From contig CM037584.1 of NCBI GenBank assembly GCA_021018995.1, positions 146,709,317-146,773,316 on the forward strand: 64,000 nucleotides of DNA, written 5' to 3'. This document shows positions 12,810 to 64,000 of the stretch, piece after piece. Positions within the stretch are counted from its first letter, which is position 1; each line of letters starts with the position of its first letter. This stretch comes from Chloranthus sessilifolius (taxonomy: Eukaryota > Streptophyta > Magnoliopsida > Chloranthales > Chloranthaceae). The notes beneath the pieces are model-generated. The model was given only the letters and a program-made list of their open reading frames with translations, did no database searches and was not told where the DNA came from. Position numbers and translations under genes: made by a program.

Positions 12810-12811
12810 GT

Positions 12812-19527: not shown

Positions 19528-20395
19528 TTTATCTCATCTTATAAAATTTTCATCCTCGAAAATTGACCTAAGTCACACTAACAAACCCACACACATGAGA
19601 CTGTAAGCGTACACATAATAGCAAACTAACGCCCACTTTCGGCAGAAGTATACACTAACTACCTGCAAGGATACAATTTACAGCACACATGTATGTGGCA
19701 CCTATGTACGTATAAATGAAAACATATACATAATATATGACACCGTTATTATCCACATCTATCAACTTGACACAGCCACACACTGTGTCCTATACACGTT
19801 CACACATATGATAAGTACATTCTATTTTCCATGTAGGCAAAGAAACTCATAATAAAACCTGCAGTCTAAATGTACTACAATGTATCAACCACAAGTTGTG
19901 TCAACCCAGATATGTCATTAAATTGACATAGAATCTGCATCCCGCACAAAATTTACCAATTGCGGTATCCACAATACCACACAACAACAAATCAAAACTT
20001 CCATTATAGGAAACTATAATTCTAAGCACATAAGACCATAACCATTCCTAGCACATTAAATTAACATGTCGTGAAAATTTAAACCAGAACCATCCACAAT
20101 TACTTCGCAGAGGAACTTCCAAGACGTAATAATCAAACACACTAGGCTGAAATACTAAATCATTTGAATACTAAGTAATCCATTCACAACTAAGTAACCA
20201 TTCACATTGAAATATTAAACTATTCACATAATATAAATACCATTCACACCACAAAAAATTTAAACAAGTATCCATGTGACAACCATGTCACCATAGTTTC
20301 AGAGTTTACACATCAAAAGTTTACAATTAATTTCTCCCTGTATATTTTAAAAAATGAAAATATCACAAAATGTTCTCCATGATCACCAACAGTGG
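19528..20395 (-). other. 3' untranslated region of element C
   Basis: AT-rich sequence between the third gene and the 3' LTR with no supported gene. Directly next to the LTR, the minus strand reads GAGGATGAAAATTTTATAAG then ATGAGATAAA, a weak polypurine tract resembling the tract of the gag-only array. Confidence 0.6.
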
Positions 20396-21893: not shown

Positions 21894-21904
21894 CCCTTTT
21901 ATAG
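21894..21904 (-). promoter_or_regulatory. TATA box of the C third gene
   Basis: The minus strand reads CTATAAAAGGG, about 195 bp upstream of ATG 21697, with the palindrome cluster immediately upstream. The same order occurs in D and E. Confidence 0.55.
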
Positions 21905-21929
21905 TCTATTCCTCACACGTGTGACTTAA

Positions 21930-22170
21930 GGCAGCTCAGGCACGCGAGTGTCAGTCATCCACTGGAACTCAATTTCTTTTTATTATTGTATATATTTTTT
22001 TTTTCATTTATGAGTGGCTTGCACAAGCGAGCTTTAAGTTCACTTAAGCCTCGCGCGAGCGAGACTCAGTAAGCTCTCAGGGAGTCAAACTTCCCTACCT
22101 GTTTCCTTTGTCTGAGTGCCTTGCACGAGCAAGCACTAAAGCTTGGGCGCGCGAGAACCATAGTACTTCT
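21930..22170. repeat. Internal CTCGCGCGAGCGAG-like cluster of element C
   Basis: Motifs CCTCGCGCGAGCGAGACT, CTTGCACAAGCGAGC, CTTGCACGAGCAAGC and GGGCGCGCGAGAA lie between the chromodomain and the TATA box of the third gene. They are the same motif type, with the same neighbouring words (TTCACTTAAGCC, CTCTCAGG), as in the C LTRs. Confidence 0.75.
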
Positions 22171-27223: not shown

Positions 27224-27235
27224 GCTCTGATACCA
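27224..27235 (-). other. Primer binding site of element C
   Basis: GCTCTGATACCA on the plus strand is TGGTATCAGAGC on the element strand, two bases from its 5' LTR. Confidence 0.92.
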
Positions 27236-27237
27236 AC

Positions 27238-29432: not shown

Positions 29433-29437
29433 TATTT

Positions 29438-35500: not shown

Positions 35501-37784
35501 ACAGGTTTCGGGGTGCTAAAATCTGGGCTGTCATAAAGAGAGAGCGTCCTGGATTATCGTTCGGATTTGACAAATTCTATCGGGACCTCGAGTTTAACTT
35601 ACCTACAGGATTCAAGCCGCCGAAGTTCAGTAACTACAACGATACCGAAAACCCAAATCACAATCTGGCATTATTCTGTAACGACTGTCAGCCCATTCGT
35701 GAAAACCAAGGGCTCCTAATCCACTACTTTCATAGATCGTTGGAAGGAGAGCCCTCGATTGGTTTGTCAGATTACAGCTCCACAGGATCGACACCTCCGA
35801 AGATCTGACCGACCAATTCCTGAACCAGTATAAGCATCTGATACAAGAAGCGGTCAGTCTTGGTGACCCAATGACAACTAAACAAGAACCCGAAGAGGAC
35901 TTCGCGGACTTCAAAAATTGTTGGAGGAAGCTTACAGCCCGCACCGGGAGCCAGATGAAAGAGAAGGATGCGATCTACATCATCATAGATAACGTTAGAG
36001 ATCCTCTTCAAAGCGCTCTTATTATAAGTGATTGCCCAGACTTCGATGCCCTTCACTTGCACGCTAACTGTATCCAATGACACATCAAGAGAGGAGACTT
36101 TGCCTTTTCGATAATAGCATCGCAGGTTGACTCTTTCAGTGACTCGAAGGCAAAAAACAATAAGAAAGCCTCCAGCTTTGAGCAAGTCAACATGGTTATC
36201 AATCGACAGAACTCTAAAATAGAAACTATCAACCAAGGAATCCTGGTCAAAATCAATACCAGAACCAGAATCAACAGCGGTACCCTAATCAAAACAAGAA
36301 CTAATATCAAAATTGGAACTAATACCCTAACCAAAATACCTACCAGAACCAGAATCATAATATAGCCCAAAATCGGCCAGCTAACCCTCAGAATTATAAC
36401 AACATACCCCCGCCCTAGAACTTCAACCAGCAAACCAGGGGTCCTTACCAACCAAAACGCGAACATTACCCTCCATTGCTCAACACCATCCCTAGCATCT
36501 TTTGCCTCCTTAGCAACCAGAACCTCATTTGATTCCCACCAGAATGACCAAGACCCTGGCCCGTAAATCTCAACTACAGTAAGTTTTGCCCATTTCATCA
36601 ATTCGCAGGACATAACTTCGAAGACTGTTGAGTTTTATAGGGCATGATCTATGACATGAATGATCAAAACCAAATTGACTGGGAGTCTCTCCAAAATTCC
36701 AACCCCAATCACAATCAACCCTCACAGAACCTATGGATCATTATAAACCCCATGCCTAACCATAACTAGGAACCAGTATCGCACATTACTACAATGGATC
36801 TCCCTAGCCGACTCCCCATTCATCCTTACCAGCATCAATCTGCCCAGTGCCCCAGCCGGCTCAATTGAACCCCCAAGACCTCTAGCCATCCGTATGCACC
36901 CCTCATTATTGATCACTTGAATCACACCTTCGGATTCTCCTCTATATTTGACCTTTAATCAGATCAGAGTCCAAGCATTTAGGGCACGGAGGCCCAACCT
37001 TCAAAGACTGCCGCCAGAATCCTTGACTCCCCCAAACCCTAAACCAACTCTACTGACATTGCCCCTCTACGACTCTGAACCCGAAGATAGTGGTATCCTC
37101 ACTCAAAACTTACCAGAGGTCGATGATGCTCCGGATCAAATGCCCCTCTATGATACTAAGCCTGAAGACGATGAAACCCCCATTCAATATTTGACACAGG
37201 TCGACAACACATTCGACCAAGGACCTGAAGCAATACCTCAATTCAAGCTAACCACCGAAACAGATAGACAGAATGAAGAGTCAACCAAGAAAGATGAACT
37301 AATCTCCACATTTCTGGAAGAAGAGGATTACACACAATACCTCCCCCCATGGAATGGCATAGCCCCAGTGCGTATCCCTGCTTCCAACGTCACTTCATTC
37401 TCTATGATCATTCCAAAAAGTTCATCAAGATGAATCGCCGTATAACCCGAGCACCAACAATCTGCGTACCCGGTACTTTCCCCGGGGAGAAGCAGAATAT
37501 GGGTGCTCAGCCATCGGAGAGAATAACATAAGAAAGGGAAAAAAACTTGTCTCCCTCGCCTCATGTGATTACTCCACCTCCATCCCCGGTGCCAGTACCT
37601 CAGCCACCACAACCGAACGCAATACAAAGCACATAGAGCCAGTAAAGAGCCAGCACTCGAGAGAGGCTAGGAGTATGATCTCCTATGACACCTTGAAAAA
37701 GTCTCAACATAGATATCAATACTTGAGCTTATCAATAAGTCACCCAAGCATCACCGACTACTAATGAAAGCGTTGGATGAGGCA
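32526..37784 (+). pseudogene. gag: Tat/Ogre-like gag, split by a solo LTR
   Basis: The N-terminal part is at 32526-33000; the reading then resumes at 35541 after the solo LTR. Tat-type gag landmarks: FKPPKFSNYNDTENPNHNL (about 35612-35665), LLIHYFHRSLEGEP (about 35710-35755), a DFKNCWRKL segment (from about 35908) and DALHLHANCI (to about 36078). An Asn/Gln-rich stretch at about 36190-36420 precedes a CPFHQFAGHNFEDC zinc-finger-like motif (about 36585-36630). An open frame, 36948-37433, is acidic and rich in Pro/Asp/Glu with two related segments (PLYDSEPEDSG, PLYDTKPEDDE). Stops and frameshifts lie throughout, and the frame ends at the Athila insertion in RLLMKALDEA. Confidence 0.72.
33001..35535 (+). 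repeat. Solo LTR of a chromovirus relative, TSD AAGAG
   Basis: TGTAATGTCCCTG to GGCTGTCATA (terminal CA decayed to TA), flanked by AAGAG at 32996-33000 and 35536-35540; 2535 bp. The host gag reads on across it. No internal region remains, so it formed by LTR-LTR recombination. It has TCGATCGA-rich palindromes at about 33590-34165, donor-like CAAG|GTATGA near 33442, acceptor-like TATGTTTAG|GTGACC near 34277, GAG|GTAGGGAACAC, GACCAGTACGGCGGACAAT and a hairpin at 35029-35047. Confidence 0.9.
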
Positions 37785-42499: not shown

Positions 42500-44871
42500 G
42501 ACTACAACTCCTCCACTAGGGATCACCTACGGGTTTAAAGGCTTGTTGCATTTGCTAAACCGTGGAGCATTGATTGCCGGATTCAACGCGTTTGGAGCCG
42601 TTGAAGCAAAAGCTGGAGCCCTAGCCATTCCAACCTAGATCTTAATCAATTTGAGATTGATTGAAGGTGAGTTTTAAATTGAGGTTAATGCATAGATTAT
42701 AGATCATTAAATTCAGTCAAGAAGGGTTTAAAGGATATATTAAAGGCTTAGAGAAGAAAGGGAAAAGATATGGAAGAACAGCCAGAAAGGGGGCTGAATC
42801 AAACCAAATTAATTAATCGAAATTGGGATTCGATTAATCGATTTTGGTCTGAAAGTTGAAAAGTCAAGTAAACCCGATTTCGATTAATCGAATTAGATTT
42901 CAATTAATCGATTTAGAAGGTTGATTAATCGATTTGGAGATCAACTAATCGAATTAGATTTCGATTAATCGATTTGGAAGGTTGATTAATCGATTTGGAG
43001 ATCGACTAATCGACTAGGTACCTCCAGTGGCTGGAGAAACATGACCTGGGGAAATTGACTAATCGAGTTGAGAAATCGATTAATCGACTTTGGATTTCAA
43101 TTAATCGATTTGGGATCGACTAATCGATTTCAGACTTTCGACCACTCGATTTGAGAATCGACCTTACTATGTTGGAGATTTTGATTAATCGATTTGGGAT
43201 CGATTAATCGAATTTGAATCTCGATTAATCGATTTTGGGAATCGATTAATCGATTTGGACTTCGATTAATCAATTTTGGGAATCGATTAATCGAATTGTG
43301 TTTCGATTAATCAATTTTGGGAATCGATTAATCGACTTTGGCAGTTTTGCTTGACTTTATAGTATTACTTTGAGACTCATGAAGGGTCTAGGACCTTCTT
43401 CATTATATCTTTAGTGATATATTGCATGTGTTATAATGTACCATAGGTGGTATGTGTGAAAGCGAGCACAAGGAACTGCGTGGGACCTTGATGCTTGGAC
43501 CTCCAGAGAATTAAGGTAGGGAACACTTTGAATATGTACTTTAATTGTAAGAGCATGTATGTAGTGATATATTTATCAGAATTGAAAGTGTTTTAACTAT
43601 GAAAAGCTTTGTGAAAATGGGTGTGTGTGTGACACTAAGAATGCGATAAAGGCATCTATGTGATGCGAGTAACTAAGATCAAGTAATCTAATGAGAATGA
43701 GACATTCCCAGGGGATGAGAAAGTAATAAAGGCATCAGTGGATGCGAGTAAGTTATACATCGCAGGGATGTATATGTGATTGAATAATTATTGTTGAGGC
43801 CTAACTGATATAAGATAGCATTTTATACGGTGAACAACTATATGTAAAGCACATGTTATTTTTGTTATTTGAGATTTGTTTAGGATACCCCACCGACGTG
43901 GCTGGATAACCACGACTGACACGGTAGGATATCCGTGACCGGTACGATGGCCAATCCATACACCAGTGCGGAGGTCTATCCATATACAGTAAGCACATCC
44001 CAGGGATGTTGAGATGAGTTTTAATCCCGCCGCCTATTGAGAAAGGGGCTTGGGTCATATTCCCAGGGAATAAATTTTTACAACTGTCTATTTAGAAGAC
44101 GATGAAGGGTATCTCATCGGGGCTCGATGCTATATTGCTCGGGGATTACTTAAGTTGAAGATTTAAGTTTTTCTTTAGGCCTGTTCAGTGTCATTCATGA
44201 TAAATCAACAGTAAAGTAAGACATGCTAATTACCAGTGAACTTGAATGTAAATCATCAGTTGTTAAACTATTTTTCTAGCAAATGCATGGACTCATCATG
44301 CTTAGAATATCATGGAATATATGTGAGTTTTAATTTATATGTTCATTGTGTTGTTCCCTATTGAGCTAGGATGTAGCTCACCCCTTTAGACTATACGTCG
44401 CAGGTCCTTTGTTGGCAGCAGCTGAGGCTTCGGGAGGCGTTGATCCGGGTGATTCGGATTACGTGCCTGGAGACTAGTTGGAGGCTCCTCCCGAGGATTT
44501 CTTCTAGGAGACTCTGCTGTGTACTTTGACAGAGAGTAGTTTTTGAGAGTAGACTTGTACGGCTTGGTATCTCAAGCCTTTATTTTTGATAAACAATGTA
44601 ACTAAATTGGATTATTCTTTTGGCGAACCATCTGGGGTGATCTGTTTATCACCGATGGTTCGGATCGGTTCTCTGTTCATGCAGTAGCATGAAAGTAGAA
44701 CTGTCTTTTGTTATGCCAGATGGGCATGTTACTTTCCATTTTATGAAATTTTTTACCTTATTTATTTATGGTTGCTTGTTATACCAATGTTCCGTGAATA
44801 GTTTTGGGGCACGGTCTGGAGGATCGTGCTGATGGCACGGGTTTTGGGGTGTCGAAATCCGAATTGTCACA
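42500..44871 (+). repeat. 5' LTR of element D (left edge uncertain)
   Basis: Ends GAATTGTCACA at 44871. It aligns with the E LTRs from about 42560; the first few hundred bases expected from E (TGTAATATCCC...) are missing, so the LTR looks truncated or replaced at its left end. Modules: GAAG|GTGAGT (42667), TCGATTAATCGA cluster, CCATAG|GTGG (43446), TTAAG|GTAGGGAACAC (43516), GACCGGTACGATGG (about 43937), hairpin 44362-44380 and CGTCGCAG|GT (44403). Confidence 0.82.
42808..43336. repeat. TCGATTAATCGA palindrome cluster in D LTR
   Basis: Many copies of ATCGATTAATCGAATT, TTGATTAATCGATTTGG, GACTAATCGA and similar, spaced irregularly by about 10-30 bases, with CCAGTGGCTGGAG in the middle (about 43024). 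The 12-mer TCGATTAATCGA is its own reverse complement. Confidence 0.9.
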
Positions 44872-48497: not shown

Positions 48498-51000
48498 TGT
48501 GACAGCCTGAATTTTAGCACCCCGAAACTCGTGCCATCAGCACGATCATCTTGACTGTGCCCCTTGACTACGCACGGAACACTGGTATATCAAGCAACAC
48601 TAATGGAAAGAACATAAATAGGGCTGCGAAATAAATCACCATTTAAATATTACTCAAAAGACAGTTCTACTTTCATGCCTCTGCATGAATGGAGAATCAG
48701 CCCGAACCATCGATAACAGCTAATCATCAAGGATGGTTCGCCCAAAAGAATAATCCCAACAATTATTTACATTTTTTAATCAAAAACAAGGCTTGACATA
48801 CCAAGCCGTACCAAATACGCTCACAAAACTCTCAAAGGTGCACAACGGAGTCCTCTAGAAGAAGTCCTCCGGAGGCGGCTCCAACTCGTCACCAGGCGCA
48901 AGGTCCGACTCACCAGGGTCAACGTCCCCTGAAGCCTCAACAGCTGCTAATAGTGGACCTGCGACATATAGTCTAAAGGGTGAGATACATCATAGCTCAA
49001 TAGGGAACAAAACACAGTGAACATATAAATTAAAACTCACATATTTTCCATGATATGTCATGCATGATGTATCTATGCAATTACTGAGAAAAACAGTCGA
49101 AAAGCATCACCTTTTACTGGTAGTTTACACATGTCTTTTAATTACTCATGAATGATACTGACTAGGCCTAAAGCAAAACTTAACCTTTCAACTTAAGTAA
49201 TCCCCGAGCAATATAGCATCGAGCCCCGATGAGATACCCTTCATCGTCATCTATATAGACAGTTTTAAACGTATTCCCTGGGAATACAATTAGTACCCAA
49301 GCCTCATTCCCCGAGGGATCGGTGGCGGGGTTTCAACTTATCTCAATTCAACACCCCTGGGGTGTGCTTACTGTGTACGGATATGCCTCCGCACTGGCTT
49401 ACGGTTTCGCCGCCGTATCGGTCACGGATATCCTGCCGCGTCAGTCGTGGGTATCCCGCCACGTCGGTGGGGTATCCTATCAAACCTCAAATAACAAAAA
49501 TATCAGGTGCTTTACATATAGTTATTCACCGTGTAAGTGTGGTATCTTATATCAGTTAGGCCCTATCAGACATTATTCAATCCTAGATACATCCCTGGGA
49601 TGTATCTATTCACTTGCATCACACCTGATGCTCTTATTAAATCACTTCCTCATCCCCTGGGGATGGCTCATCATTATATACTCTTATTGGTGTCACTCAC
49701 ACATAATTTTCACAAAACTTTAAGCAATAAAATAGTTTTCAATTTGATTCTATATCAATACATACATGCTCTTGCAAATTAAAGTATATGTTCAAGGTGT
49801 TCCCTACCTCAAATCTCTGATAATTCATGCATCAAGGTCCCACGTGGCTCCTTGTGCCCATGATCATACGTACTACCTTTGGTACAACATAACACATGCA
49901 ACACATCATTAAAGATGTAATAAGGAAGGTCCAAGACCCCCCCGAGAATCTTGAAGTCAAACTAAAAGGTCAATAAATTTTAAGTCAGTCGATTAATCGA
50001 ACTCCAAGATCGATTAATCGAAACTGATTTGATTAATCGATTCCCAAAATCGATTAATCGAAATTCAAAATCGATTAATCGATTCCCAAATTCGATTAAT
50101 CGAGATCCCCGTTCGATTAATTGAATCCCACATCGATTAATCAAAATTCTCTAATCTATCAATTCGATTCTCAATTTGAGTAATCGAATTCCCAAAATCG
50201 ATTAATCGATCCCAAATCGATTAATCGAAATTCGAAATCGATTAATCGAAATCCCATTTCGACTAGTCGATTTCCCCAAGTCACTTTCCTCTAGCCACTG
50301 GAGGTTCCCAGTCAATTAATCGACACCAAAATCGATTAATCGAAATCCAAAGTCGATTAATCGAATTCGGGTTCTTTGACTTTTCAACTTCTTGGCGAAA
50401 ATCGATTAATCGAAACCTGATTTCGATTAATTGATTTGGCCTTCAAATTTTTTCCTACTCTTTTTCCTTCATTTTTCTAAGTACTTAATCTATCATTTAA
50501 AACATTTTTGACTGAATTTAAACCTCTATAACCTATGCATTAAATTTACAAAATTTTACCTTCAATCAATCTCAAATTGATATGGTCAAAGGGGTTGGAA
50601 AGGCTAGGGTTCCAGCTTTGGCTTGAACGGATCCTTCGTGTCGAATCGGCCTTTTAAATGCTTGAATTCCCCTTCCAAACACCCACCATTACTCCTTGCA
50701 TTAACTATGCTCTCCTTCTCTCTCTCTCTCTTCTTTACTCTCTCTCAACAACCAAACAAAAGAACTAGGGCTATTAAACCCTTTTATTTCTCATTCAACC
50801 CGTGTGTTGAGCACATACACTAGAAGTAGGTGTATGTAGCTGCAGATTTCGTCATGTTCCACACAGTTACTTAAATTCTCACATCTCATCCGTTCATCTT
50901 ATCCTACGTTAACTTGTGAACTCTTACATGGTCAAACCTATGACCAGTCGGGCACGGATCCCGAGGTCACTGTTTAACTCTGAATTTTTGGGATATTACA
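48498..51000 (-). repeat. 3' LTR of element E
   Basis: 2503 bp, TGTGACAGCCTG to GGATATTACA. TCGATTAATCGA cluster at about 49988-50435, hairpin at 48981-48999 (one pair mismatched), short acidic reading frame on the minus strand 48958-48855 ending ELEPPPEDFF. Confidence 0.94.
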
Positions 51001-51013
51001 TCCTCCCCACTTT
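51001..51013 (-). other. Polypurine tract of element E
   Basis: The minus strand reads AAGTGGGGAGGA directly before the 3' LTR, a standard plus-strand priming tract. A nearby poly-C/G run (about 51061-51080) is a simple repeat. Confidence 0.8.
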
Positions 51014-51352
51014 GGGAATTTTTGTCCCCAAAAATATTCCAAGGGCGTCGGTCTGGTTTGCCCCCCTCCCCCCCCCCCCCACACTTGTGTGAGGTGGACC
51101 AGTTGTTTAACACAATAGAGTGTAGACACACACATAGCATAAAAATATAATTGTAGGAGAAAATTTACAAAACCATTACATAATGTAAGAAAACGACGAC
51201 ACGTGACAGAATGTAAGAAAATCAATGATCATAAATATACAAAATTGTTTCTGTATTTCATTATATTTCCAAAATTACCGTTGTTGTTTATAGCTTTTGA
51301 ATTACATCAAAACTCCTAAAATCGATAATACAAAAATATCCTCGTCTTGGTG

Positions 51353-52869
51353 TCAAGCTGTCCCCTCTGGTGGCTGATCTGGTGTAAGAGCAAGCTGCTC
51401 TGACTGGGCTAGCTGCTGTTGCTGGGGTGGCTCTGTAGGGTGCTCCTGCGGCTGGGGTGTGGAGCATGCTGCATCGGTAGCCGCGGTGGTCGGACGGAAG
51501 ACGGGACCCCTATGGAAGGCAGTTCGTCCCGCGGTCCACTCCTCCTCCTGAGCTAAATACCACTGGTAGTCCAACAGGTAGATGTAGCGGAGGGTATGGA
51601 ACATAAGGAAGTCCATCCTCCGGTTCATCCGCTCGTTGTTGGCCTCCATGCGTGCCAACACATCCTCGACGGTAGGACCGGAGTGAGCTGCGCGCCGACG
51701 GTAGGATGACGTGGGTGTAGCTGGCGCGGACTATGCTGGCGGTGTAGGGGAAACGGTGGTATGGGAGGGCACCCCCTCCGCTGCGGGCTCAACCGGGTGT
51801 GCCCCTCCCATGGGTGGGTCCTGATGTGGTGGTGGGGGTGGTGGTGGTGCTACTTCCGCTGCTGCTGCTACTGGAACTGGACCCGGAGCCAGTAGGGTCT
51901 GCTTCAACAAGTTGTAGCTTTGGCTCCATGAAGACTTGGAAAACATCTTCACTCAGTCCATCGCCCGCACCTCGTGGGGCGATACCGCATACTCGGGAGC
52001 GTTGGAGTAACACTCCAACATGCTCGAGATCAGCCGAGCATACGGCATTTTCTCTTTGGGCCTCAAGTTGCCCTTCATCAATTTACCTTTTATGTATCTC
52101 ATCCCTTCTAGGATGAGCATGGTTGCGTCGAACCAACGACCACAAAAGGCCGCATATAGTGCCTGCTGCACCATCTCTATCCGCTCGGTGTCGTGCCACA
52201 ACGGGTAGAGGTTACACTTGATGATGGAATCAAGCATCCACATGTAGTGGGGAAGGTCGACCCTCTTGATGGAGGATCCTGACCCCTTTTTCCCGTTAGT
52301 CATGCGGGTCATAATCTCTTCAAATTTAACTTCCTCTTCAAAGAGTGGGAAGAGGGTGGTCTCTGGGGTGAAATCGAGGTAACACTCGAGTACCTCGTGT
52401 ATGTGGCGACGGGTGATTATGTACTCCCGACCCTCTATGGTGGTCTTAATCACGTCGTCGGTAGAGCCGTCTACGAGCCCTTGGTAAAACAATCTAACTA
52501 ACCTAGGGTAGTAGGAACCCCGGATGGTTTGAGAAGGTTTTCGAGACCGGCATTTCGGAGGTAGTTGCGAGCCCATTGGGTGTCACCCGGTATATCGGGG
52601 TTCGTAAAGAGGGTTGGGTCGATGTTATACTCGACCTCAAAGGTCTTCGCCTCCCACCACTCATTGGGTTGTAGTACGTTAGTGGGTTGTGGCGGCATGG
52701 GGGTAGATTCACGTGAAGACGCACTCGTCGAACCAGAGGTGGTCTCCGATGCCGACGGTGATAGAGTCCTCACCGGTGAAGGGGTAGGTGGTGGCGGTGT
52801 GGCGTTCTTACGCCGGACCGGGAGTTTAGAGGTCGCCCTTGCCGAAGACAACCGGCTTTTCGGCAGCAT
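51353..52869 (-). pseudogene. Third gene of element E, Transposase_32-like protein
   Basis: Sense to pol, between chromodomain and 3' LTR. ATG at 52869 (MLPKSRLSSARATSK), a basic then Pro/Ser-rich N-terminus, NEWWEAKTFEVEY, then a one-base frameshift near 52512. The second run, 52576-51953, has YYPRLVRLFYQGL, IEGREYIITRRHIHEVLEC, LPHYMWMLDSIIKCNLYPL, AFCGRWFDATMLILEGMRYI and MPYARLISSMLECY. Then a stop, a proline-rich low-complexity stretch (51952-51731), a stop, and a C-terminal part with a probable coiled coil (DVLARMEANNERMNRRMDF) and a Gln/Pro tail ending 51353. Its block pattern (VR-FY, GR-hydrophobic-I-VL, NL-P, GRWFD, P-LIS) is that of the plant 'putative transposon protein' family. 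About 500 codons; role unknown. Confidence 0.8.
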
Positions 52870-53094
52870 TTTAGTGAAAATTCAAGAGACTAGGGTTTCT
52901 CTAACTCAATTTGAAAAAAAACACAAATTTAGGGTTTATCGTGGGTTTTGGATGCGATGGTACTTGAATCCGATCCGAACATTGACGGAAAACGCAAACC
53001 CTAGAGTGCTCGGTTGGTTGGAGAAGAAGAAGAAGAAATGGCGCCCAAAACACAAAAAACCCAAATGATTTCGAATGGGGAGCAAAATCCCCAA

Positions 53095-53107
53095 ATTTAT
53101 ATATATA
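53095..53107 (-). promoter_or_regulatory. TATA box of the E third gene
   Basis: The minus strand reads CCTATATATATAAAT, about 230 bp upstream of ATG 52869 and just downstream of the palindrome cluster. It is identical in sequence and spacing to the one in D (62808-62820). Confidence 0.65.
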
Positions 53108-53112
53108 GGCTT

Positions 53113-53790
53113 AGATTCGATTAATCAAAATTTAATCTCGATTAATCGAGATTCAAAACTAGGTCAAGCCGCGCAAAATCGATTAGTCAAAACTCAAATT
53201 CGATTAATCGAAACCATTTCGATTAATCGAAATCGTATCCATTAAAATTTTCAAGTTTTTGAGCTCACTGGCGCAAGCCAATCGATTAATCGAAATCCAT
53301 TTCGATTAATCGAAATTCCAAAATCGATTAATCAAAATTCAGTTCTATTAATCGAAATCGTGCAGTCCCTTCTAAACTTTTCAGGATTCTTTTAGTTACT
53401 CGATTAGTCGAACTATGATTCGATTAATCAAAATCGTTCCTCATACTTCAAATTTTCTAATTTCCTTAAATTAATCGATTAATCGAACTTCCAGTTTGAT
53501 TAATTGAAACCATAAATCGATTAATCGAATTCCTCCTCGATTAATCAAAATTTCATAAAATCCCTCTAAGTTCTTCTAAAATTCTCAATTTGTTCGATTA
53601 ATCGAACCCTCAATTCGATTAATCAAAAAACTAAATCAATTAATCGAAACCATGATCGATTAATCAAAATTTCACTCTGTCATTTTTCTAATCCTCATTC
53701 AAGTTCCCAGTCACTAGCACATGCCAGTTGACTAATCGAACAAAATCGATTAATCGAATTTCCAAATCGATTAATCGGTTTTGATCAAAT
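53113..53790. repeat. Internal TCGATTAATCGA cluster of element E
   Basis: Dense, irregular copies of TCGATTAATCGAAAT, TCGATTAATCAAAAT and relatives between the chromodomain stop and the TATA box, punctuated by CACTGGCGCAAGCCAATCG (about 53267) and CACTAGCACATGCCAG (about 53713). Same motif and same CACTGG-type punctuation as the LTR cluster. Confidence 0.88.
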
Positions 53791-53994
53791 TCTGTTGGTT
53801 TTCAAATTTCGCTATCTATTTGATTTATCTTGGTAATTTATGATATCAAGTGATCCTTGGTTCTACAAAACACATCATCATGGTCATGTGTGTATATAAA
53901 AAAAATTTCTATGCCATACTTTGATCAAAATTTTACATTGGATTACAAGTGTTGTCAAAATCCACAAACACGCTTGCGGGGGTATAATTGACTC

Positions 53995-56312
53995 TCAAGT
54001 GGTTGGAAACAAGGCTGGATATTGTTCCTTCATATCGGCCTCTCGTTCCCATGTAGCTTCCTCAGCCGGATGATGGTTCCATCTGACAAGTACGAGTGGA
54101 ATCACTTTCGTTCGCAGTACTTATTTCTTTCGATCTAAAATCTCCACCGGCTCTTCGATCATGGTCATGTCCTCATGCATCTCTAACTCTTGACCACTCA
54201 ACACGTGGTCAGGGTCGTTAATGTACTTCCTAAGCAGTGATACGTGGAAGACATTGTGTACTGAATCGAACAACGGTGGCAATCCAATACGGTAAGCAAC
54301 TTTCCCTACTCGTCCCAAAACCTCAAATGGTCCAAGATAGCGGGGACTTAGCTTACCTCTCTTTCCAAATCTCATCACCCCTTTCATAGGTGACACCTTC
54401 ACAAACACGTGTTCACCCACCTTGTAGTCTACACTCGTCCGCTTGATATCAGCGTAGCTTTTCTGTCTGCTCTGCGTCGCTTTAAGTTTTGCCCTTATCA
54501 TACGAACATAGGTAATGTATAGAACAATCATAGTCCTTGAGGAACTCCATCCATCTGTGCTGTCTCATGTTGAGCTCTTTCTGTGTAAACAGGTATCGGA
54601 GGCTCTTATGATTGGTGAAAATTTCAAACATCTCACCATACAAGTAATGTCTCCAAATCTTCAGTGCAAAAATGACTGCTGATAGCTCCAAGTCATGAGT
54701 CGGGTAATTTTTCTCGTGTTCTTTCAGCTGTCTTGACCCGTAAGCTATCACTTTCTTGTGTTGGTTGAGCACGCAACCCAAACCATTGTATGATGCATCG
54801 TTGTACACTGCATATCCTCCACTACCTGAAGGAATCGCTAGCACTGGAGCTGAAGTGAATCTCGTCTTAAGTTCTTGAAAACTCTTCTCGCATGCCTCAC
54901 TCCACTCAAATCTTGAATCCTTTCGTGTCAGCTTCGTGAGAGGTCCCGATATCTTTGAAAACTCCTCGACGAAATGTCAATAGTAGCTTACTAACCCAAG
55001 AAAACTTCGGACATCGGTCACTGTCTTTGGTTGCTCCCATTTAACCACTGCTTCTATCTTTGTTGGATCTACAGTGACACCGTGCTTTGAGACAACATGT
55101 CCTAAAAAGCTAACCTCTTTCAACCAAAACTCACATTTGCTGAGTTTGGCGTACAATTGGTGTTCACGTAGCGTCTGTAGAGCAATCCTCAAATGTTCTT
55201 CGTGTTCCGTCTTGGATTTGGAGTATATCAAAATATCATCAACGAATACTACTACGCAGGAGTCCAAGTGTGGTTTAAACACTCGATTCATCAGATCCAT
55301 AAACGACGCTGGAGCATTCGTCAACCCAAACGGCATTACAAGGAATCCATAGTGTCCATACCGTGTCCTGAAAGCTTCCTTCTAGATGTCCTCTGCCTTG
55401 ACTCTCAACTGATGGTATTCAGATCTCAGGTTGATCTTGGAAAAATACCTTGCTCCTTGCAGTTGATCGAACAGATCATCGATTCAGGCAAAGGGTAACG
55501 GTTCTTGACAGTGAGTTTGTTCAGTTGTCGATAGTCAATGCATAGACGCATTGACCCATCTTTCTTCTTAACAAACAAGACCGGTGCTCCCCACGGAGAC
55601 ACGCTCGGTCTGGAAAACCCCTTATCCATGAGCTCTTGTAGTTGCTCTTTCAACTCCTTCAACTCAGCAGGAGCCATTCTAAATGGTGCTTTTGAAACAG
55701 GCTCCATTCCCGATGCTAAGTCAATGGTGAATTCTACTTCTCTCTCTGGAGGTAATCCAGACAACTCTTCTGAAAAAACATCGGTGAAGTCTCACACAAC
55801 TGCTATCTCAGAGATGACGTTCTTTTCTTCCTTGTCCTCCTTTAAGAAAGCCAAGTATCCATTGCAACCCTTCCTGATCATCCGCTCGGCCCTTACTGCT
55901 GAGATCAGTGGCATACGTGATGACCTCACTCCTTGAAATCGAAATGATCTTCTTGTGTTGGGTCTGAAGACGACAACCTTGTTCTTGCAATCGACCGTCG
56001 CACAATGCTGTGCCAACCAGTCCATGCCAAGGATCACATCAAACCCTTGCATGTCCAGTAGTATCAACTTTGCCTCCAATTCATGCACCTCCAGGTCTCG
56101 AATTGCTACGATGACGGATTTGCAAGCTAGCTCTGTGTCCACTAACTCTCCAGTCGGAATAGACACAAATAGGATAAAATCCAACGCCTCTGGAATAATC
56201 TTCATCCTCTTGGCAAATCGTGGAGTGATGAATGAGTGTGTAGACCCTGGGTCTATCAACACTCTAGTGTCATATCCAACGAAGCATCCTTTCTCATATA
56301 CAGTTAGCGTAC
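53995..56312 (-). pseudogene. pol: pol of element E with deleted integrase core
   Basis: Protease (56312-55800): YDTRVLIDPGSTHSF, VILGMDWLAQH. RT (about 55780-54970): [27 protein letters not shown], a one-base loss near 55483, then [13 protein letters not shown] followed by a stop near 54977. RNase H (54844-54520): [11 protein letters not shown] and FTNHKSLRY (D to N). At about 54510 the frame jumps from DYDCSIHY to [11 protein letters not shown], so the integrase zinc finger and the whole DDE core are missing; a 3-4 bp homology (ACC) sits at the join. GPY/F module (SPRYLGPFEVL) and chromodomain (IPLVLVRWNHHPAEEATWE) close the protein at 53995, with an in-frame stop after DRKK. Confidence 0.88.
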
Positions 56313-56460
56313 CTATAGTATACATACATACAATAATTTACACCCCTAATTCACGTACAAATTCAGTGTTTTAAAAATAATCTACACTATTTCCTAATGA
56401 ATGCACCTTCTCTATCTAAAATTTTTAAGGAATTTACAACCCTTTATTTAAATGAAAATC
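56313..56460 (-). other. gag-protease intron-like segment of element E
   Basis: The minus strand reads GATCAAG|GATTTTCATTT ... ACTATAG|GTACGC; 148 bp, aligned with the C and D segments (shared AAATAAAG and TAGATAGAGAAGGTGCAT). The 5' GT is lost by a small deletion; the 3' site is kept. Joining gives glycine and the protease frame GTLTVYEKG. Confidence 0.68.
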
Positions 56461-57821
56461 CTTGATCATGCTCGCCTTCGAAAGGATCGATAGGCTCTTC
56501 CATGAACGAATCATGCGTTTGAATGGGTCGTGTAACCCAAGTCGCCTTCCCTTATCAACCTCAATCTCTTGATCAAGTGGCCCACCTTGCCACATCTAAA
56601 CAACCCCGGTTCCTACTTAGCAATACGTAACCGAACGTGAGGCTTGCCACACTTGGCACAAGTCTCTCGAGGTGCGGAAGAAACTGTACGAGAACCCTGT
56701 GTGACGGTAGCGCCAGTAGACATGGCAGGGCTCTCATAGCATAAAGGTCTCCCCGACGCAAGTAGTGGAAATCTCTGTTGGTTGTGCTGCTGCGCCGGTC
56801 TTCCGAAACCTCCCTGGAACTGTGGTCTCTGATTTTGGGCCACGAACCTCGGCTTTTTATTCACCGGTTCGTAGTTCCCCGTTCTTCCTTGATCATTGCT
56901 TCCTCTTTGTTGCTCTCTCTGTCTATATCTGTTGTTAGTTTCCTCTTCCACAACTAGTGCCTTGCTCATGACCTCTTCATAGGTCCTCAACTGAAATGGA
57001 GCTACTCCTCCTCTAACCTCAGGCTTCAAGCCTTGCTGAAACCTCTTTGATTTCATCACGTCGGTGGCGACGTAATCAGGAGCAAAATGGGCGAGTCATA
57101 GAAACTCCACTCCGTATTCTCTCACATTCATCCTCCCTTGCACTAATTGTAGAAACTGAATCTCCATTTGGTTTCTCACCACCTCTGGAAAATACTATTT
57201 GTTGAACTCCTCAACAAACTCCTCCCAAGTCCATGGCAACTCTGGGGTCTCCTGGGCCCTATTCCGTATCACGAACTTCCACCAAGGCCTAGCCTCCCCA
57301 TCTAGCATGTAGGCTGCCCATCTAACACTCTCATCTTCCATGCATGTCAGCACGCTGAATACTTTCTCCATTTTCATCAACCAATTTTCTGCTGCCATCG
57401 TGTCTGCCTGCCCAGAAAATGTAAGAGGTCTCATCCTCCTAAACTCAGTAAAATACGAAGGCACAGGCAATGTAGGTCCTACAGGTGGTGTAGGTGGTTG
57501 CTGCTCTCTTGCTGCATGAGCTGTAAAGGATGCGGCTTGTTGTGTCATGGCAGCTGCCATAGTCTCCATGGTGTGCATCATTCTTTGGCGCTCCTCTCTA
57601 TCTTCCTGTCTTTCTCTCACTCTCTCCTGTTCTCTCAGATCTTGATCCTGACGATCTCGATCCTCTTCCTCTTGTTGTCTACTACTGTTGCCCCCTGGGG
57701 CTTCACTCCTTCCCAAGGGTACTCGATTGGTAGGAGAGATGTAATCATCTCCACTACGTAAACTTCTCTGTTGGCCTCCTCTCGGTCGGCCTTTTCCCCT
57801 AGATGACATTCGCGGCTGCAT
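56444..57821 (-). pseudogene. gag: Degenerate gag of element E
   Basis: ATG 57821 (MQPRMSSRGKGRPRGG). A long open N-terminal run to 57195 includes a charged Arg/Glu/Gln-rich region (possible coiled coil) and the capsid start FRRMRPLTFSGQADTM. A stop follows in the FNKQYF region; later runs give MKSKRFQQGLKPEVRGG and a linker. The first zinc knuckle is broken by a frameshift (CAKCGKPH then out of frame) and the second is partial (FRCGKVGHLI). It ends in the intron-like segment. Same gag as D, with CAG codons where D has TAG. Confidence 0.85.
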
Positions 57822-57898
57822 TTGAAACTAAGGTTTTGTTAGCAGAAGTCCCTATGTTCTGACAAAATGAATGATTGTCAGATTTGCTAAAAGAAATT

Positions 57899-57910
57899 GC
57901 TTTGATACCA
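57899..57910 (-). other. Primer binding site of element E
   Basis: GCTTTGATACCA on the plus strand, that is TGGTATCAAAGC on the element strand, the same A variant as in D. Confidence 0.9.
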
Positions 57911-57912
57911 AC

Positions 57913-60442
57913 TATGGCATCCCGGATTTCGACACCCCGAAACTCGTGCCATAAGCACGATCATCTTGACTATGCCCCTTGACTACGCATGGAACACTGG
58001 TATATCAAGCAACACTAATGGAAAGAACATAAATAGAACTGCGAAATAAATCACCATTTAATTATTACTCAAAAGACAGTTCTACCTTCATGCCTCTGCA
58101 TGAATGGACAACCGGCCCGAATCATCGATAACAGCTGATCATCAAGGATGGTTCGCCCAAAAGATTAATCCCAACATTTATTTACATTGTTTAATAAAAA
58201 ATAAGGCTTGACATACCAAGCCGTACCAAATACGCTCACAAAACTCTCAAAGGTGCACAACGGAGTCCTCTAGAAGAAGTCCTCCGGAGGCGGCTCCAAC
58301 TCGTCACCAGGCGCAAGGTCCGACTCACCAGGGTCAACGTCCCCTGAAGCCTCAGCAGCTGCTAATAGTGGACCTGCGACGTATAGTCTAAAGGGTGAGC
58401 TACATCATAGCTCAATAGGGAACAAAACACAGTGAACATATAAATTAAAACTCACATATTTTCCATGATATGTCATGCATGATGTATCTATGCAATTACT
58501 GAGAAAAACAGTCGAAAAGCATCACCTTTTACTGGTAGTTTACACATGTCTTTTAATTACTCATGAATGATACTGACTAGGCCTAAAGCAAAACTTAACC
58601 TTTCAACTTAAGTAATCCCCGAGCAATATAGCATCGAGCCCCGATGAGATACCCTTCATCGTTATCTATATAGACAGTTTTAAACGTATTCCCTGGGAAT
58701 ACAATTAGTACCCAAGCCCCTTTCCCCTGGGGATCGGTGGCAGGGTTTCAACTTGTCTCAATTCAACACAGGGTGTGCTTATGTCTGGATATGCCTCGAC
58801 CGGCTTACGGTTTTGTCTTCGGTCACGGATATCCTACCGCGTCAGTCGTGGGTATCCCGCCACGTCGGTGGGGTATCCTATCAAACCTCAAATAATAAAA
58901 ATATCAGGTGCTTTACATATAGTTATTCACCGTGTAAGTGTGGTATCTTATATCAGTTAGGCCCTATCAGACATTATTCAATCCTAGATACATCCCTGGG
59001 ATGTATCTATTCACTTGCATCACACCTGATGCTCTTATTAAATCACTTCCTCATCCCCTGGGGATGGCTCATCATTATATACTCTTATTGGTGTCACTCA
59101 CACATAATTTTCACAAATCTTTAAGCAATAAAACAATTTTCAATTTGATTCTATATCACTACATACATGCTCTTGCAAATTAAAGTACATGTTCAAGGTG
59201 TTCCCTACCTCAAATCTCTGATAATTCACGCATCAAGGTCCCACGTGGCTCCTTGTGCCCATGATCATACGTACTACCTATGGTACAACATAACACATGC
59301 AACACATCATTAAAGATATAATAAGGAAGGACCAAGACCCCCCGAGAATCTTGAAGTCAAACTAAAAAGTCAACAAATTTTAAGTCAGTCAATTAATCGA
59401 ACTCCAAGATTAATTAATCGAAATTGATTTGATTAATCGATTCCCAAAATCGATTAATTGAAATTTAAAATTGATTAATCGATTCCCAAATTTGATTAAT
59501 CGAGATCCCCATTCGATTAATCGAATCCCACATCGATTAATCGAAATTCTCTAATCTATCAATTCGATTCTCAATTCGAGTAATCGAATTCCCAAAATCG
59601 ATTAATCGATCCCAAATCGATTAATCAAAATTCGAAATCGATTAATCGAAATCCCATTTTGACTAGTCGATTTCCCCAGGTCACTTTCCTCCAGCCACTG
59701 GAGGTTCCCAGTCGATTAATCGACACCAAAATCGATTAATCAAAATCCAAAGTCGATTAATCGAAACTCAGTTCAATTAATCGAATTCGGGTTCTTTGAC
59801 TTTTCAACTTCTTGGCAAAAATCGATTAATTGAAACCTGATTTCAATTAATCGATTTGGCCAGATTCAACCCCCCTTTGGGCTGTTCTTCCAAATCTTTT
59901 CCTACTCTTTTTCCTTCATTTTTCTAAGTACTTAATCTATCATTTAAAACATTTTTGACTGAATTTAAACCTCTATAACCTATGCATTAAATTTACAAAA
60001 TTTTACCTTCAATCAATCTCAAATTGATATGGTCAAAGGGGTTGGAAAGGCTAGGGTTCCAGCTTTGGCTTGAACGGATCCTTCGTGTCGAATCGGCCTT
60101 TTAAATGCTTGAATTCCCCTTCCAAACACCCACCATTACTCCTTGCATTAATTATGCTCTCCTCTCTCTCTCTTCTTTACTCTCTCTCAACAACCAAACT
60201 AAAAAACTAGGGCTATTAAACCCTTTTATTTCTCTTTCAACCCGTGTGTTAAGCACATACATCAGAAGTAGGTGTATGTAGTTCTTGATTTCGTCACGTT
60301 CCACACAGTTACTTAAATTCTCACATCTCATCCGTTAATCTTATCCTAAGTTAACTTGTGAACTCTTACATGGTCAAACCTATGACCAGTTAGGCACGAT
60401 TCCCGAGGTCACTATTTAACTCTGAATTTTTAGGATATTACA
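57913..60442 (-). repeat. 5' LTR of element E
   Basis: 2530 bp; the inner end has decayed from TGTGACAG to TATGGCAT. TCGATTAATCGA cluster at about 59388-59850. Hairpin at 58396-58414 with a perfect 7-bp stem. Acidic reading frame 58373-58270 on the minus strand. Colinear with the 3' LTR with few indels. Confidence 0.94.
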
Positions 60443-61854
60443 GAGCATATCCATGAACTACAGATAAAAGACCCGGCGCTAACAAAGATTCGTCAAGATG
60501 TAACTGAAGGCATTGGATTTGAGTTTTCGATCAAGGAGGATGGTTCCTTATTGTTCAAGGGCCGTCTTTGCATTTCGGATAATGCCGATCTGTAGTGAAC
60601 AATTCTGGATGAATCACACAAATCAAGCTATGCTATCCACCCAGGAAGCACAAAGATGTATCAAGATTTGAAAAAGAATTACTGGTGGAAAGGCTTGAAA
60701 CAAGATGTGGCAGAGTAAGTGTCACGGTGTTTGACGTGCCAGCAAGTCAAGATCGATCATAGACACCCCGTAGGTCTATTGCAGCCTCTACCTATACCAG
60801 AATGGAAGTGGGAATCGATCTCTGTGGACTTCAACGTTGGGTTACCACGTACTGCAAAGAAGTATAATGCCATTTGGGTAGTGGTCGATCGATTGACCAA
60901 GTCAACACACTTCTTGCCTTACAACACGATGTACACGGCGGGAAGACTGGCAGAGCTGCATTTGAAGGAGATTGTCCGTTTGCATGGGATTCCGAGTAGC
61001 ATTGTTTCAAACCGTGACCCATTATATACATCAAAATTTTGGAAGAAATTTTAAGAAGGAATGATTTGACGCAAGATTCCATCCACAAATGCAGAAGCGA
61101 GCAGAGGGTCAATCAGATCATTGAGGACATGCTTAGGGCATGTATGTTAGAATTACAAGGATCATGAGATCAGCACCTACCCTTGACTGAGTTCGCATAT
61201 AACAATAGCTTTCAGACGAGCATTGGGATGGCACCATATGAAGCACTTTATGGATGGCGATGTAGATCGCCCATCAATTGAGAAGAAACCGAGGAGAAAT
61301 TTGTTTTGGGACCCAAGATACTTGAAGATAATGCCACCTATGTTCGTATGATAAGGGCAAAACTCAAAGCGGCTCAGAGCAGACAGAAAAGCTACGCCGA
61401 TATCAAGCGGACGAGTGTAGACTTCAAGGTGGGTTAACACGTGTTTGTGAAAGTGTCACCTATGAAGGGGGTGATGAGATTTGGAAAGAGAGGAAAGCTA
61501 AGTCCCCACTATCTTGGACCATTTGAAGTTTTGGGTCGAGTAGGGGAAGTTGCTTACCACATTGGATTGCCACCGTTATTTGATCAGGTACATAATGTGT
61601 TCCATGTATCTATGCTCAGGAAGTACCTTAACGACCCTGATCACGTATTGAGCGGTCAATCATTTGAGATGCATGAGGACATGACTATGATCGAAGAGCC
61701 AGTGGAGATTTTAGATCGAAAGGAACAAGTGTTGCGAACAAAAGTGATTCCATTAGTACTGGTTCGATGGAAGCATCATCCGACCGAGGAAGCTACATGG
61801 GAACGAGAGGCCGACGTGAAAGAACAATATCCGGACTTGTTTGCGACAGCTTGA
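60443..61854 (+). pseudogene. pol: pol of element D, second part: integrase and chromodomain
   Basis: Integrase zinc-binding module [11 protein letters not shown] ... CLTCQQVK (about 60640-60747), then SVDFNVGLPRT (first Asp) and VSNRDPLYTSKFW, in which the second catalytic Asp is changed to Asn. The region holding the catalytic Glu is frame-broken (about 61075-61110). [20 protein letters not shown] follows, then a final open run 61441-61854 with the GPY/F module (HYLGPFEVLGRV), HNVFHVSMLRKYL and a well-kept chromodomain (IPLVLVRWKHHPTEEATWE). There is no intron at the position where C has one. Chromodomains of this kind are thought to steer integration to heterochromatin. Confidence 0.88.
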
Positions 61855-61901
61855 GAGTCAAAAATTGTATCACTGCAAGCATGTTTGTGGATTTAGATTA
61901 C

Positions 61902-62160
61902 ATGTTGTAATTCAATGTCGATCTTTTGATCAGTTCATTCAAAGAGAAACAATTTTATTCACATAGCGTTCTAAGTTAAATGTCATGATGATGTATTTTG
62001 TAGAACCAATGACCAACTGGTCAAAATTATATGTTGTAATTCAATGTCGATCTTTTGATCAGTTCATTCAAAGAGAAACAATTTTATCCACATAGCGTTC
62101 CTAAGTTAAATGCCGTGATGATGTATTTTGTAGAAACAATGACCAACTGGTCATAGTTTA
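61902..62160 (+). repeat. 129-bp tandem duplication downstream of D chromodomain
   Basis: ATGTTGTAATTCAATGTCG starts at 61902 and again at 62031; the copies differ at few positions. Not present in E at the matching place. Otherwise 61855-62212 is noncoding. Confidence 0.85.
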
Positions 62161-62212: not shown

Positions 62213-62805
62213 AAACTGATTAATCGATTTTGGTCGATTAGTCGACTAGCATGCGCCAGTGAGTGGAAATTTAATGAGGAATCCGGAAATGAAAGAAGTG
62301 AAAATTTGATTAATCGATTTTAGTTTCGATTAATCAATTTTAGATTTTGATTAATCGATCTAGAGATTCGATTAATCGATAACTTAAGAATTTTGGAAAA
62401 TTTTGAAGAATTTTATACGATTTTGATTTATCGAAGAAGAATTCAATTTATTGATTTGGGATTTCGACTAATCGATCTGGAAGATCAATTAATCGAGTCA
62501 CTGAGGAATTGGGAAAATTTTGAAGAAACCTCACGATTTCTACTAATCGAAGTAAAATTCGATTAATCGATTTTAGAATTTTGATTAATCGAAGTGAATT
62601 TCGATTAATCGACTGGCTCATACCAGTGAGCTCGAAAACTTAAAAATTTTAATGACTACGATTTCGATTAATCGAAATGAGTTTGATTAATCGATTTTGA
62701 GTTTCGATTAATCAATTTTGGAAATTGATTAATCAATTTCGCGCGGCTGAACCTAGTTTTGAAACTCGATTAATCAATTTTGCAAATCGATTAATCGAAC
62801 CGGGG
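62213..62805. repeat. Internal TCGATTAATCGA cluster of element D
   Basis: Irregular copies of the same palindrome as the D LTR, with GCATGCGCCAGTGAGTGG (about 62250) and CATACCAGTGAGCTCG (about 62622). It lies between pol and the TATA box of the third gene, as in E and C. Confidence 0.88.
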
Positions 62806-62807
62806 CC

Positions 62808-62820
62808 TATATATATAAAT
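62808..62820 (+). promoter_or_regulatory. TATA box of the D third gene
   Basis: CCTATATATATAAAT, about 230 bp upstream of ATG 63046. A donor-like CTAAG|GTAAAA lies in the leader near 62970. Same layout as in E. Confidence 0.65.
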
Positions 62821-63045: not shown

Positions 63046-64000
63046 ATGCTGCCTAAAACCCGATTGTCTTCGAAGAAGGCAACATCCAAACTCCCGGTCT
63101 GACGTAAGAACGCCGCACCGCCACCACCTACCCCATCACCGGTGAGGACTCCGTCACCGTCGGCATCGGATACCACATCCGGTTCGACGAGCGCGTCTTT
63201 GCGCGAGTCTTCACCAATGCCACCACCACCCACCAATGTACTCCAACCCAACGAGTGGTGGGCGGCTAAGACTTTTGAAATCGAGTACATTAGTGATGAA
63301 ACCCTATTTACAAACCCCGATGTATCGGGAGAGACCCAATGGGCTCGAAATTACCTTGTAAAGGCCGATCTCGGCAATATTTTGAAACCAATCTGCGGGT
63401 CCTACTACCCTATATTTGTCCGACTATTTTACCAAGGGCTGACGGACGGACCTACGGACGACATAGTCACGACCAAGATAGAGGGTCGTGACTACACTTT
63501 CACTCGTCGCCACATCCACGAGGTCTTAGAGTGCCATTTGGACTTTGTACCCGAGACCACCCTCTTCCCACCCTTTGAGGAAGAGGTGAGATTTGAAGAA
63601 ATAATGACTCGGATGACAAATGGGAAAAAGGGGTCGGGATCGTCCATTAGGAGGGTCGACCTTCCCCATTACATGTGGATGCTTGATTCCATAATCAAGT
63701 GCAACCTTTACCCGCTATGTCATGACACCGAGAGGGTGGATAAAGTGCAGCAGGCACTTTACGCGACCTTCTGTGGCCGTTGGTTTGACGCCACCATGAT
63801 CATCCTGGAGGGGATGAGATATATTAAGGGGAAGTTGATGAAGGACAATCTAAGGCCCAAAGAAAAAATGCCCTATGCTCGGCTCATCTCGAGCATGCTG
63901 GAGTGTTACTCAAACACTCCAGAATACACTATATCGCCTCATGAGGAGAGGGCTACGGTCCGAGTGAAGACGTTCTCAAACTCTTCATGGGGTCGTAGTT
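63046..64000 (+). CDS. Third gene of element D, Transposase_32-like protein (partial, one stop)
   Basis: ATG at 63046 (MLPKTRLSSKKATSK), matching the E start. One stop at 63100-63102, then an uninterrupted frame from 63103 to the window edge (about 299 codons): Pro/Ser-rich segment, NEWWAAKTFEIEY, QWARNYL, YYPIFVRLFYQGL, IEGRDYTFTRRHIHEVLEC, LPHYMWMLDSIIKCNLYPL, TFCGRWFDATMIILEGMRYI and MPYARLISSMLECY. The conserved core is complete; the proline-rich and coiled-coil C-terminus known from E lies beyond the window. It is much better preserved than the gag and pol of the same element. It may represent a sense accessory gene under its own promoter. DNA- or RNA-binding is possible from the basic N-terminus but not shown. 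Confidence 0.8.

Follow-up and report, generated by a model that had tools for sequence, protein, structure and literature searches.

According to the available parts of the source papers, LTR retrotransposons are a major component of plant genomes (PMC11728184), and extra ORFs, including sense ones between pol and the 3' LTR, are widespread and heterogeneous among them (PMC6317226, PMC7264820). The accessible sections of these three reports call the function of such ORFs unknown or speculative (PMC11728184, PMC7264820, PMC6317226). The classes eORF-3'F (PMC6317226) and aORF-3S (PMC7264820) are, as far as the available text defines them, extra sense ORFs outside gag-pol, similar to the gene analysed here. 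In sunflower, Athila 14 has a 3' aORF with PF20167 at its 3' end, the same Pfam family as that matched here, and the conserved aORF of Tekay is located 5' and has no known domain in the portion of the paper at hand, unlike the present gene (PMC11728184). The gene23 of maize Grande also resembles the present gene: it is an accessory gene located between pol and the 3' LTR and driven by a promoter of its own; its product is a nuclear protein, and it runs antisense to gag-pol, unlike the sense gene here, according to the excerpt available (PMC7264820). Beyond these elements, partial sources describe the VANC proteins of the Arabidopsis VANDAL (MULE) elements, which are likewise products of a transposon-encoded accessory gene (PMC5735166, PMC10398659), and Tas/Bel1 of foamy viruses, the product of an accessory gene that similarly works with an internal promoter (PMC517496, PMC8670036). 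In the parts of the papers on plant extra ORFs that were available, no family-specific palindrome arrays at both LTR and ORF were found (PMC6317226, PMC7264820, PMC11728184), and a sunflower paper from 2026 gives VANC as an example and refers to the Tekay ORF, with no arrays seen in its accessible text (PMC12844716). Among the literature matches listed, mostly without subscription papers, no LTR retrotransposon combining such a gene with palindrome arrays was found. Rare 3' extra ORFs in chromoviruses were reportedly noted by Steinbauerova et al. in 2011, and maize Grande is not a chromovirus.

The window, that is, the whole stretch of DNA analysed, comprises 64,000 nt of Chloranthus sessilifolius (assembly GCA_021018995.1, contig CM037584.1, positions 146,709,317 to 146,773,316 of the forward strand) and is densely packed with plant-type LTR retrotransposons. 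Three of them, termed C, D and E, are chromovirus-type Ty3/gypsy elements, each with an accessory gene, and E (minus strand) sits within D (plus strand) by insertion. The elements are arranged as follows.

2095-16885, plus strand: element A, a tandem of four LTRs and three short interiors, with a TCGATCGATCGA array in every LTR
about 16886-19530, minus strand: 3' LTR of element C
about 27235-29434, minus strand: 5' LTR of element C
33003-35533, plus strand: element B, an apparent solo LTR, with a TCGATCGATCGA array at 33590-34164
42594-44871, plus strand: 5' LTR of element D, first few hundred bases absent, end approximate
44.9-48.5 kb, resuming at 60443 onward, plus strand: interior of element D
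48498-51000, minus strand: 3' LTR of element E
57915-60442, minus strand: 5' LTR of element E, 93.5% identical to the E 3' LTR

The 3' LTR of D lies outside the window. Pfam searches matched Retrotrans_gag, RVP_2, RVT_1, RT_RNaseH and SH3_Tf2-1 in pieces of the elements, and the full set that defines a plant chromovirus was found, namely gag, PR, RT, RH and integrase with a C-terminal chromodomain. The match to Chromo lies above the cut-off in D (9.5e-7), just under it in E (2.5e-5 for a 41-residue piece, with 24.5 bits against a cut-off of 25.1) and under it in C, where it is weak (0.0028), in agreement with the chromodomain lineage to which an earlier note on this DNA had assigned the elements. 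The same note had called all three pol-bearing; pol-domain pieces are indeed present, but E is without the integrase core, the integrase pieces of D and C matching each other and not E. The primer-binding site was read as TTGGTATCA-A/G-AGC, which we take to fit tRNA-iMet and not to be clade-specific. Each of the three interiors of A has a gag relative and gave no match to the RT, RNase H or integrase pieces of D or C, and A has no accessory gene.

The accessory gene is sense-oriented and follows the chromodomain end of pol in C, D and E, as had been described, and it precedes the 3' LTR in C and E. Its three copies are located as follows.

20396-21697, minus strand: accessory gene of C, broken; ORF 21182-21697 open
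51353-52869, minus strand: accessory gene of E, broken; pieces 52498-52869, 51953-52576 and 51353-51661
63046-64000, plus strand: accessory gene of D, interrupted by a single early in-frame stop and truncated where the window ends; ORF 63142-63999 open

The E copy has a frame change near 52.5 kb plus further stops, and the second half of the C copy contains stops and frame changes. The longest open pieces span 171 (C) and 207 (E) codons, and the D ORF stays open for 286 codons up to the window end, so that it exceeds the at least 250 codons set for a sense ORF downstream of the polyprotein in the eORF-3'F class, which it also fits in position and sense. The ordered blocks previously noticed in all three proteins reflect real homology, with 32% identity between C and D (BLASTP, E-value 4e-27) and about 80% between D and E. 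The C and E tail pieces gave no alignment. A tblastn search of the whole window with the three proteins recovered the gene in C, D and E, and no match below an E-value of 0.69 outside these genes.

Between D and E, the omega of the gene core is 0.069 (195 codons; bootstrap 0.036-0.122, with 13 of 500 replicates undefined) and that of the N-terminal part 0.181 (96 codons; bootstrap 0.084-0.350), compared to 0.072, 0.064, 0.058, 0.046 and 0.108 for five gag/pol segments (gag, PR, RT, RT-RH and the INT end, respectively); these ratios are approximate, because dS reaches 1.2-1.8 in five of the seven segments. Thus the gene core is constrained as much as gag and pol. In a first pass over all matching frames, omega was near or above 1 for many out-of-phase matches. 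The dN/dS check proposed in the earlier note reveals purifying selection for the D-E pair, whereas C versus D is saturated. None of the three copies is intact, so the constraint is that of their transposing ancestors, not of the copies seen here. Altogether, judged from three gene-bearing elements, two of which (D and E) are closely related, the gene is genuine and is explained fairly well as an accessory gene that this chromovirus group has long maintained.

Domain searches placed the protein near the PF20167 (Transposase_32) family, the likeness that the earlier note had suggested. The D piece scored 30 bits (E-value 5.8e-7) and the E piece 35.6 bits (1.1e-8), both partial copies below the curated cut-off of 45 bits, at which membership is called on a whole protein; the likeness thus holds at a sub-threshold level for D and E, but not for the C 5' piece, which the Pfam search left unmatched. 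The same searches recognised no DNA-binding domain in the protein. DUF1985, the domain carried by VANC, was unmatched in the three pieces at a limit of E-value 10, with HMMER filters dropping most matches above 0.1. The heads are basic, with 8 (E) and 9 (C) K/R within 40 residues, and, of the 45 tail residues, 21 are D/E in C (an acidic tail) and 17 are Q/P in E (a Q/P-rich tail), a combination seen in many nuclear regulators, which may be regarded as suggestive only. Searches against solved structures gave one match at an E-value of 0.95, not credible as a relative, and the structure model of the protein is too poor for use (pLDDT 37.6). The protein collection yielded 337 candidates for the D piece, none at or below an E-value of 1e-3, and 4617 for an alignment of the three pieces, none at or below 10, which, in our view, points to few plant proteins in that collection rather than to a unique gene.

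Upstream of each gene, in the sense direction and at a distance of about 205-240 bp, there is a TATA box of the form CTATAWAW, as the earlier note had reported.

21894-21904, minus strand: TATA box of the C gene, CTATAAAAGGG, at about -206 from the ATG
53095-53109, minus strand: TATA box of the E gene, CCTATATATATAAAT, at about -238
62806-62820, plus strand: TATA box of the D gene, CCTATATATATAAAT, at about -238

CTATAWAW occurs 14 times in the 64 kb, seven times on each strand, and three of the 14 are these sense boxes (62807+, 53101- and 21897-); since D and E are homologous, they amount to two independent cases, not three. In the E leader, a CTTCTTC run follows the TATA box at about -160; the D and E leaders share CTTCTTC runs and two copies of AAACCCTA (at about -69/-68 and -29), and the C leader has TAGGGTT at -145 and AAGCCCTA at -10, all of which we take to resemble words of plant leaders. 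The internal promoter that had been proposed keeps its TATA boxes, with a weaker case than first stated and an activity read from the sequence only: transcription of the gene is probably driven by a TATA promoter of its own, located within the element.

The earlier note had not described the palindromic arrays that lie both in the LTRs and upstream of the gene, and these say more on function than the TATA box does. The arrays were located as follows, with matches counted at two or fewer mismatches.

42809-43335: D 5' LTR array, 21 copies of TCGATTAATCGA
62216-62798: D spacer array, 19 copies of TCGATTAATCGA
49989-50434: E 3' LTR array, 18 copies of TCGATTAATCGA
59389-59854: E 5' LTR array, 18 copies of TCGATTAATCGA
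53117-53778: E spacer array, 23 matches to TCGATTAATCGA (22 non-overlapping), directly upstream of the TATA box
18342-18578: C 3' LTR array, CTCGCGCGAG-type, 7 matches (5 non-overlapping)
28748-28872: C 5' LTR array, CTCGCGCGAG-type, 7 matches (4 non-overlapping)
21912-22157: C spacer array, CTCGCGCGAG-type, 4 matches (3 non-overlapping), its limits set at three or fewer mismatches

In D and E, TCGATTAATCGA is found in two places only, as one block per LTR and in the spacer that separates pol from the gene, just ahead of the TATA box. Of the 126 matches with at most two mismatches in the 64 kb, 99 lie in D/E and 27 in A/B, all of them within arrays in an LTR or upstream of the gene; the D/E genes and gag-pol stretches (3914, 3639 and 1418 bp) have none, compared to a mean of at most 0.4 per shuffled region (maximum 2). 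Among the 74 exact 12-base palindromes with at least three kinds of letter, 40 are TCGATTAATCGA and 17 are TCGATCGATCGA, the other 17 being all different. A double-motif pattern gave 11 matches in the window against none in 100 shuffles, 0 contigs in viral_contigs and 3 contigs (loci L001-L003) in the prokaryote collection. A separate pattern search of viral_contigs returned 4 matches, none of them confirmed. Once the motif was masked, the LTR and spacer arrays within D and within E had no clear similarity (best E-value 0.15), with little sequence left to compare, so the motif is what the two arrays have in common. In the eight LTRs compared, the arrays are positioned at 22-45% of the LTR length, with the truncated D LTR (9-32%) and a stray B match (4%) as exceptions; their place in the LTR is similar across five elements and three motifs. 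In E, the LTR array lies about 350 bp downstream, not upstream, of a TATA-like site.

Element C repeats this layout with another, more degenerate palindrome, CTCGCGCGAG, in short arrays, and the D/E motif is absent from C. Shuffling gave means of 0.18 and 0.12 for the C 3' and 5' LTRs and 0.06 for the C spacer (maximum 2); CTCGCGCGAG was not found in the C gag-pol, gene or stretch after the gene, and its 6 matches in the rest of the window are close to the shuffle average of about 5. The C LTR and spacer arrays can be aligned over 173 bp at 70% identity, that is, beyond the motif, so shared descent explains part of their match, and both descent and selection are at work in C. In addition, A and B, families without the accessory gene in the window, carry arrays of TCGATCGATCGA, of which the 17 exact copies are divided into 14 in the A LTRs and 3 in B.

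Intervals between neighbouring motifs called at three or fewer mismatches are mostly 19-22 bp in the D/E LTRs (46 of 59), the D/E spacers (26 of 43) and B (14 of 23), and frequently so in A (18 of 40), compared to a single one of 18 in C, which has 26 bp intervals in 4 of 18. This spacing equals two helical turns, and the phasing holds for D/E, A and B. Between D and E, identity is 83-95% at core CpGs and 90-94% at other core positions, against 69-71% in non-CpG linkers. The two LTRs of E, which differ solely by change since insertion, are 82-90% identical at core CpGs, 94-97% at other core positions and 97-98% in non-CpG linkers (linker CpGs are few); core CpGs therefore change fastest once unselected, yet they are well kept between D and E. 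The core-linker comparison is biased, as motifs were called in one copy, and neutral simulations were added to correct for this. At each of three CpG rates, 0 of 1000 simulations reached the thresholds, which were taken from the spacer and the D-E 3' LTR (best LTR) comparison, not from every comparison; the simulations are simple, starting from a perfect ancestral array without indels or gene conversion. When the LTRs of A were compared among themselves, cores were not better kept than linkers, a result from one tandem non-autonomous cluster that is uninformative or mildly against selection on the cores.

We propose that the gene product may be a DNA-binding regulator that recognises the family palindrome at both promoters, as a VANC-like anti-silencer or a Tas-like transactivator, a reading to which we give an even chance. 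The protein would most likely enter the nucleus, given its basic head, bind the palindrome of its own family as a dimer or higher oligomer, and fill the arrays in the LTR and ahead of its own gene; once bound, it would open or activate chromatin, and both the genomic RNA and its own mRNA would be switched on. The outcome would be either anti-silencing or transactivation. With a different palindrome in each family, activation would be limited to the family itself and its non-autonomous kin. Binding by an element-encoded protein would explain why arrays stand at both promoters with the coding parts spared, why the motif has dyad symmetry and mostly helical phasing, and why C departs strongly from D/E in motif as well as in protein. 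The wider statement, namely that a lineage of LTR retrotransposons recognises itself through a gene with its own promoter, encoding a DNA-binding regulator, and through palindromic, mostly helically phased arrays re-specified per family at the LTR and the gene promoter, is tentative, and we rate it somewhat below even. Counting against a regulator, A and B carry arrays but, within the window, no gene, the degenerate C arrays hardly follow the 19-22 bp spacing, the E LTR array stands on the downstream side of its TATA-like site, and the protein has no recognised DNA-binding domain.

Alternatively, the arrays might be bound by a transcription factor or chromatin protein of the host, the gene serving RNA packaging, nuclear import or movement. 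Host factor sites are frequent in plant LTRs, and arrays in A and B, with the gene absent in the window, fit this explanation; however, a single host factor predicts one shared motif, whereas the motif differs between families in one host and immediately precedes the accessory gene in each of the three elements with such a gene, which makes this alternative unlikely. We consider it distinctly improbable that the arrays are slippage minisatellites, the spacer copy a fragment of the LTR, with neither functional and the gene an ordinary extra ORF. A unit of 20-21 bp is what tandem duplication gives, and the alignable C arrays and the missing core-over-linker excess among the LTRs of A point the same way, but the D-E cores are kept beyond both linkers and neutral simulations even though core CpGs change fastest after insertion, masking leaves the D and E arrays with no other clear similarity, and five elements with three motifs have their arrays at comparable places in the LTR.

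Very little probability goes to the palindromes acting in RNA, as dimerisation or packaging signals of genomic RNA with the LTR array in its 5' leader. Retroviruses dimerise through self-complementary loops, and the E LTR array, being downstream of a TATA-like site, is probably transcribed; nevertheless, the second array stands ahead of an internal gene and away from the 5' end of the RNA, and a spacing of 19-22 bp agrees with the turns of the DNA helix. The reading of the gene as env-like, from an endogenous plant retrovirus, was rejected as hardly credible: the heads are basic and no hydrophobic segment was found, the top 19-residue Kyte-Doolittle mean being 0.96 over six pieces (some residues of the broken copies lie outside these), which makes a transmembrane helix unlikely.

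With regard to the regulator, the partial sources on VANDAL describe a short family-specific motif in dense arrays in non-coding parts, with the coding parts largely spared (PMC5735166, PMC10398659), and such arrays confined to non-coding parts were also found here, more weakly for C. As in our elements, motif and protein diverge together in VANC, which has conserved and highly variable protein parts, according to the portions available (PMC5735166, PMC10398659). VANDALs are DNA transposons, unlike the LTR elements C, D and E. The VANC21 motif YAGTATTAY is not palindromic and has one orientation in the accessible text, unlike the palindromes here, and binding and demethylation have been demonstrated for VANC, whereas binding is inferred here (PMC5735166, PMC10398659). 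Membership of the gene in VANC is not claimed. Tas/Bel1 offers the second comparison: in the parts of the reports at hand, its binding elements are at the internal promoter and the LTR, a layout like that of our arrays, although foamy virus is a vertebrate retrovirus and phased palindromic arrays are not mentioned there for Tas (PMC517496, PMC8670036).

The extra 3' sense ORFs and the PF20167-bearing 3' aORF of sunflower Athila, as far as their sources describe them, weaken the novelty that the earlier note had seen in the gene itself (PMC6317226, PMC7264820, PMC11728184). The new part would rather be the gene-plus-array architecture, which the sequence statistics of two gene-bearing families, and of two further LTR families with arrays, support. 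A gene paired with a conserved family-specific motif makes the function of an extra ORF directly testable. If the protein binds its own palindrome, LTR retrotransposons would have evolved sequence-addressed self-activation of their own; if the proposal is true, an array alone would be enough for non-autonomous kin to be served in trans, and such short addresses could be of use in targeted epigenome work. The elements would then be the class I equivalent of VANC/VANDAL, combined with a two-promoter circuit like that of Tas in foamy viruses.

The LTR arrays of the retrotransposon elements A to E, which are rows of family-specific palindromes, form CpG-rich islands within CpG-poor host elements. 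Across the eight LTRs compared, the observed/expected CpG ratio is 1.07-2.75 within the arrays and 0.63-0.72 in the non-array remainder. The elements A, B and E are arranged as follows:

2095-16885, element A, a head-to-tail tandem of four LTRs and three short interiors
33003-35533, element B, apparently a solo LTR, which carries a TCGATCGATCGA array of its own
48498-60442, element E, inserted within element D

The repeat units of element A are ~3.8-4.4 kb long, and the sole gene match in each of the three interiors is a relative of gag. The tandem looks like the product of unequal exchange that multiplied a non-autonomous element. The LTR of element B is surrounded by other element-like sequence.

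In element C, the spacer array upstream of the accessory gene (21912-22157) is colinear with, and related in sequence to, the arrays of the 3' LTR (18342-18578) and 5' LTR (28748-28872), sharing 70% identity with the latter over 173 alignable bp; this stretch was therefore once copied between the LTR and the gene promoter.

Element E is flanked by GAACA and GAGCA, the two copies of a 5-base target duplication that differ at one position. At 54511-54514, its RNase H is joined directly to the integrase C-terminus. Nothing in E corresponds to the integrase-core pieces of D and C, so this element carries an internal deletion and either depended on other copies from the start or came to do so. Comparison of D (61336-62015) with E (53851-54513) revealed 84-89% identity over the end of pol and the start of the spacer, dropping to ~74-75% on either side. 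This block probably reflects past recombination between families.
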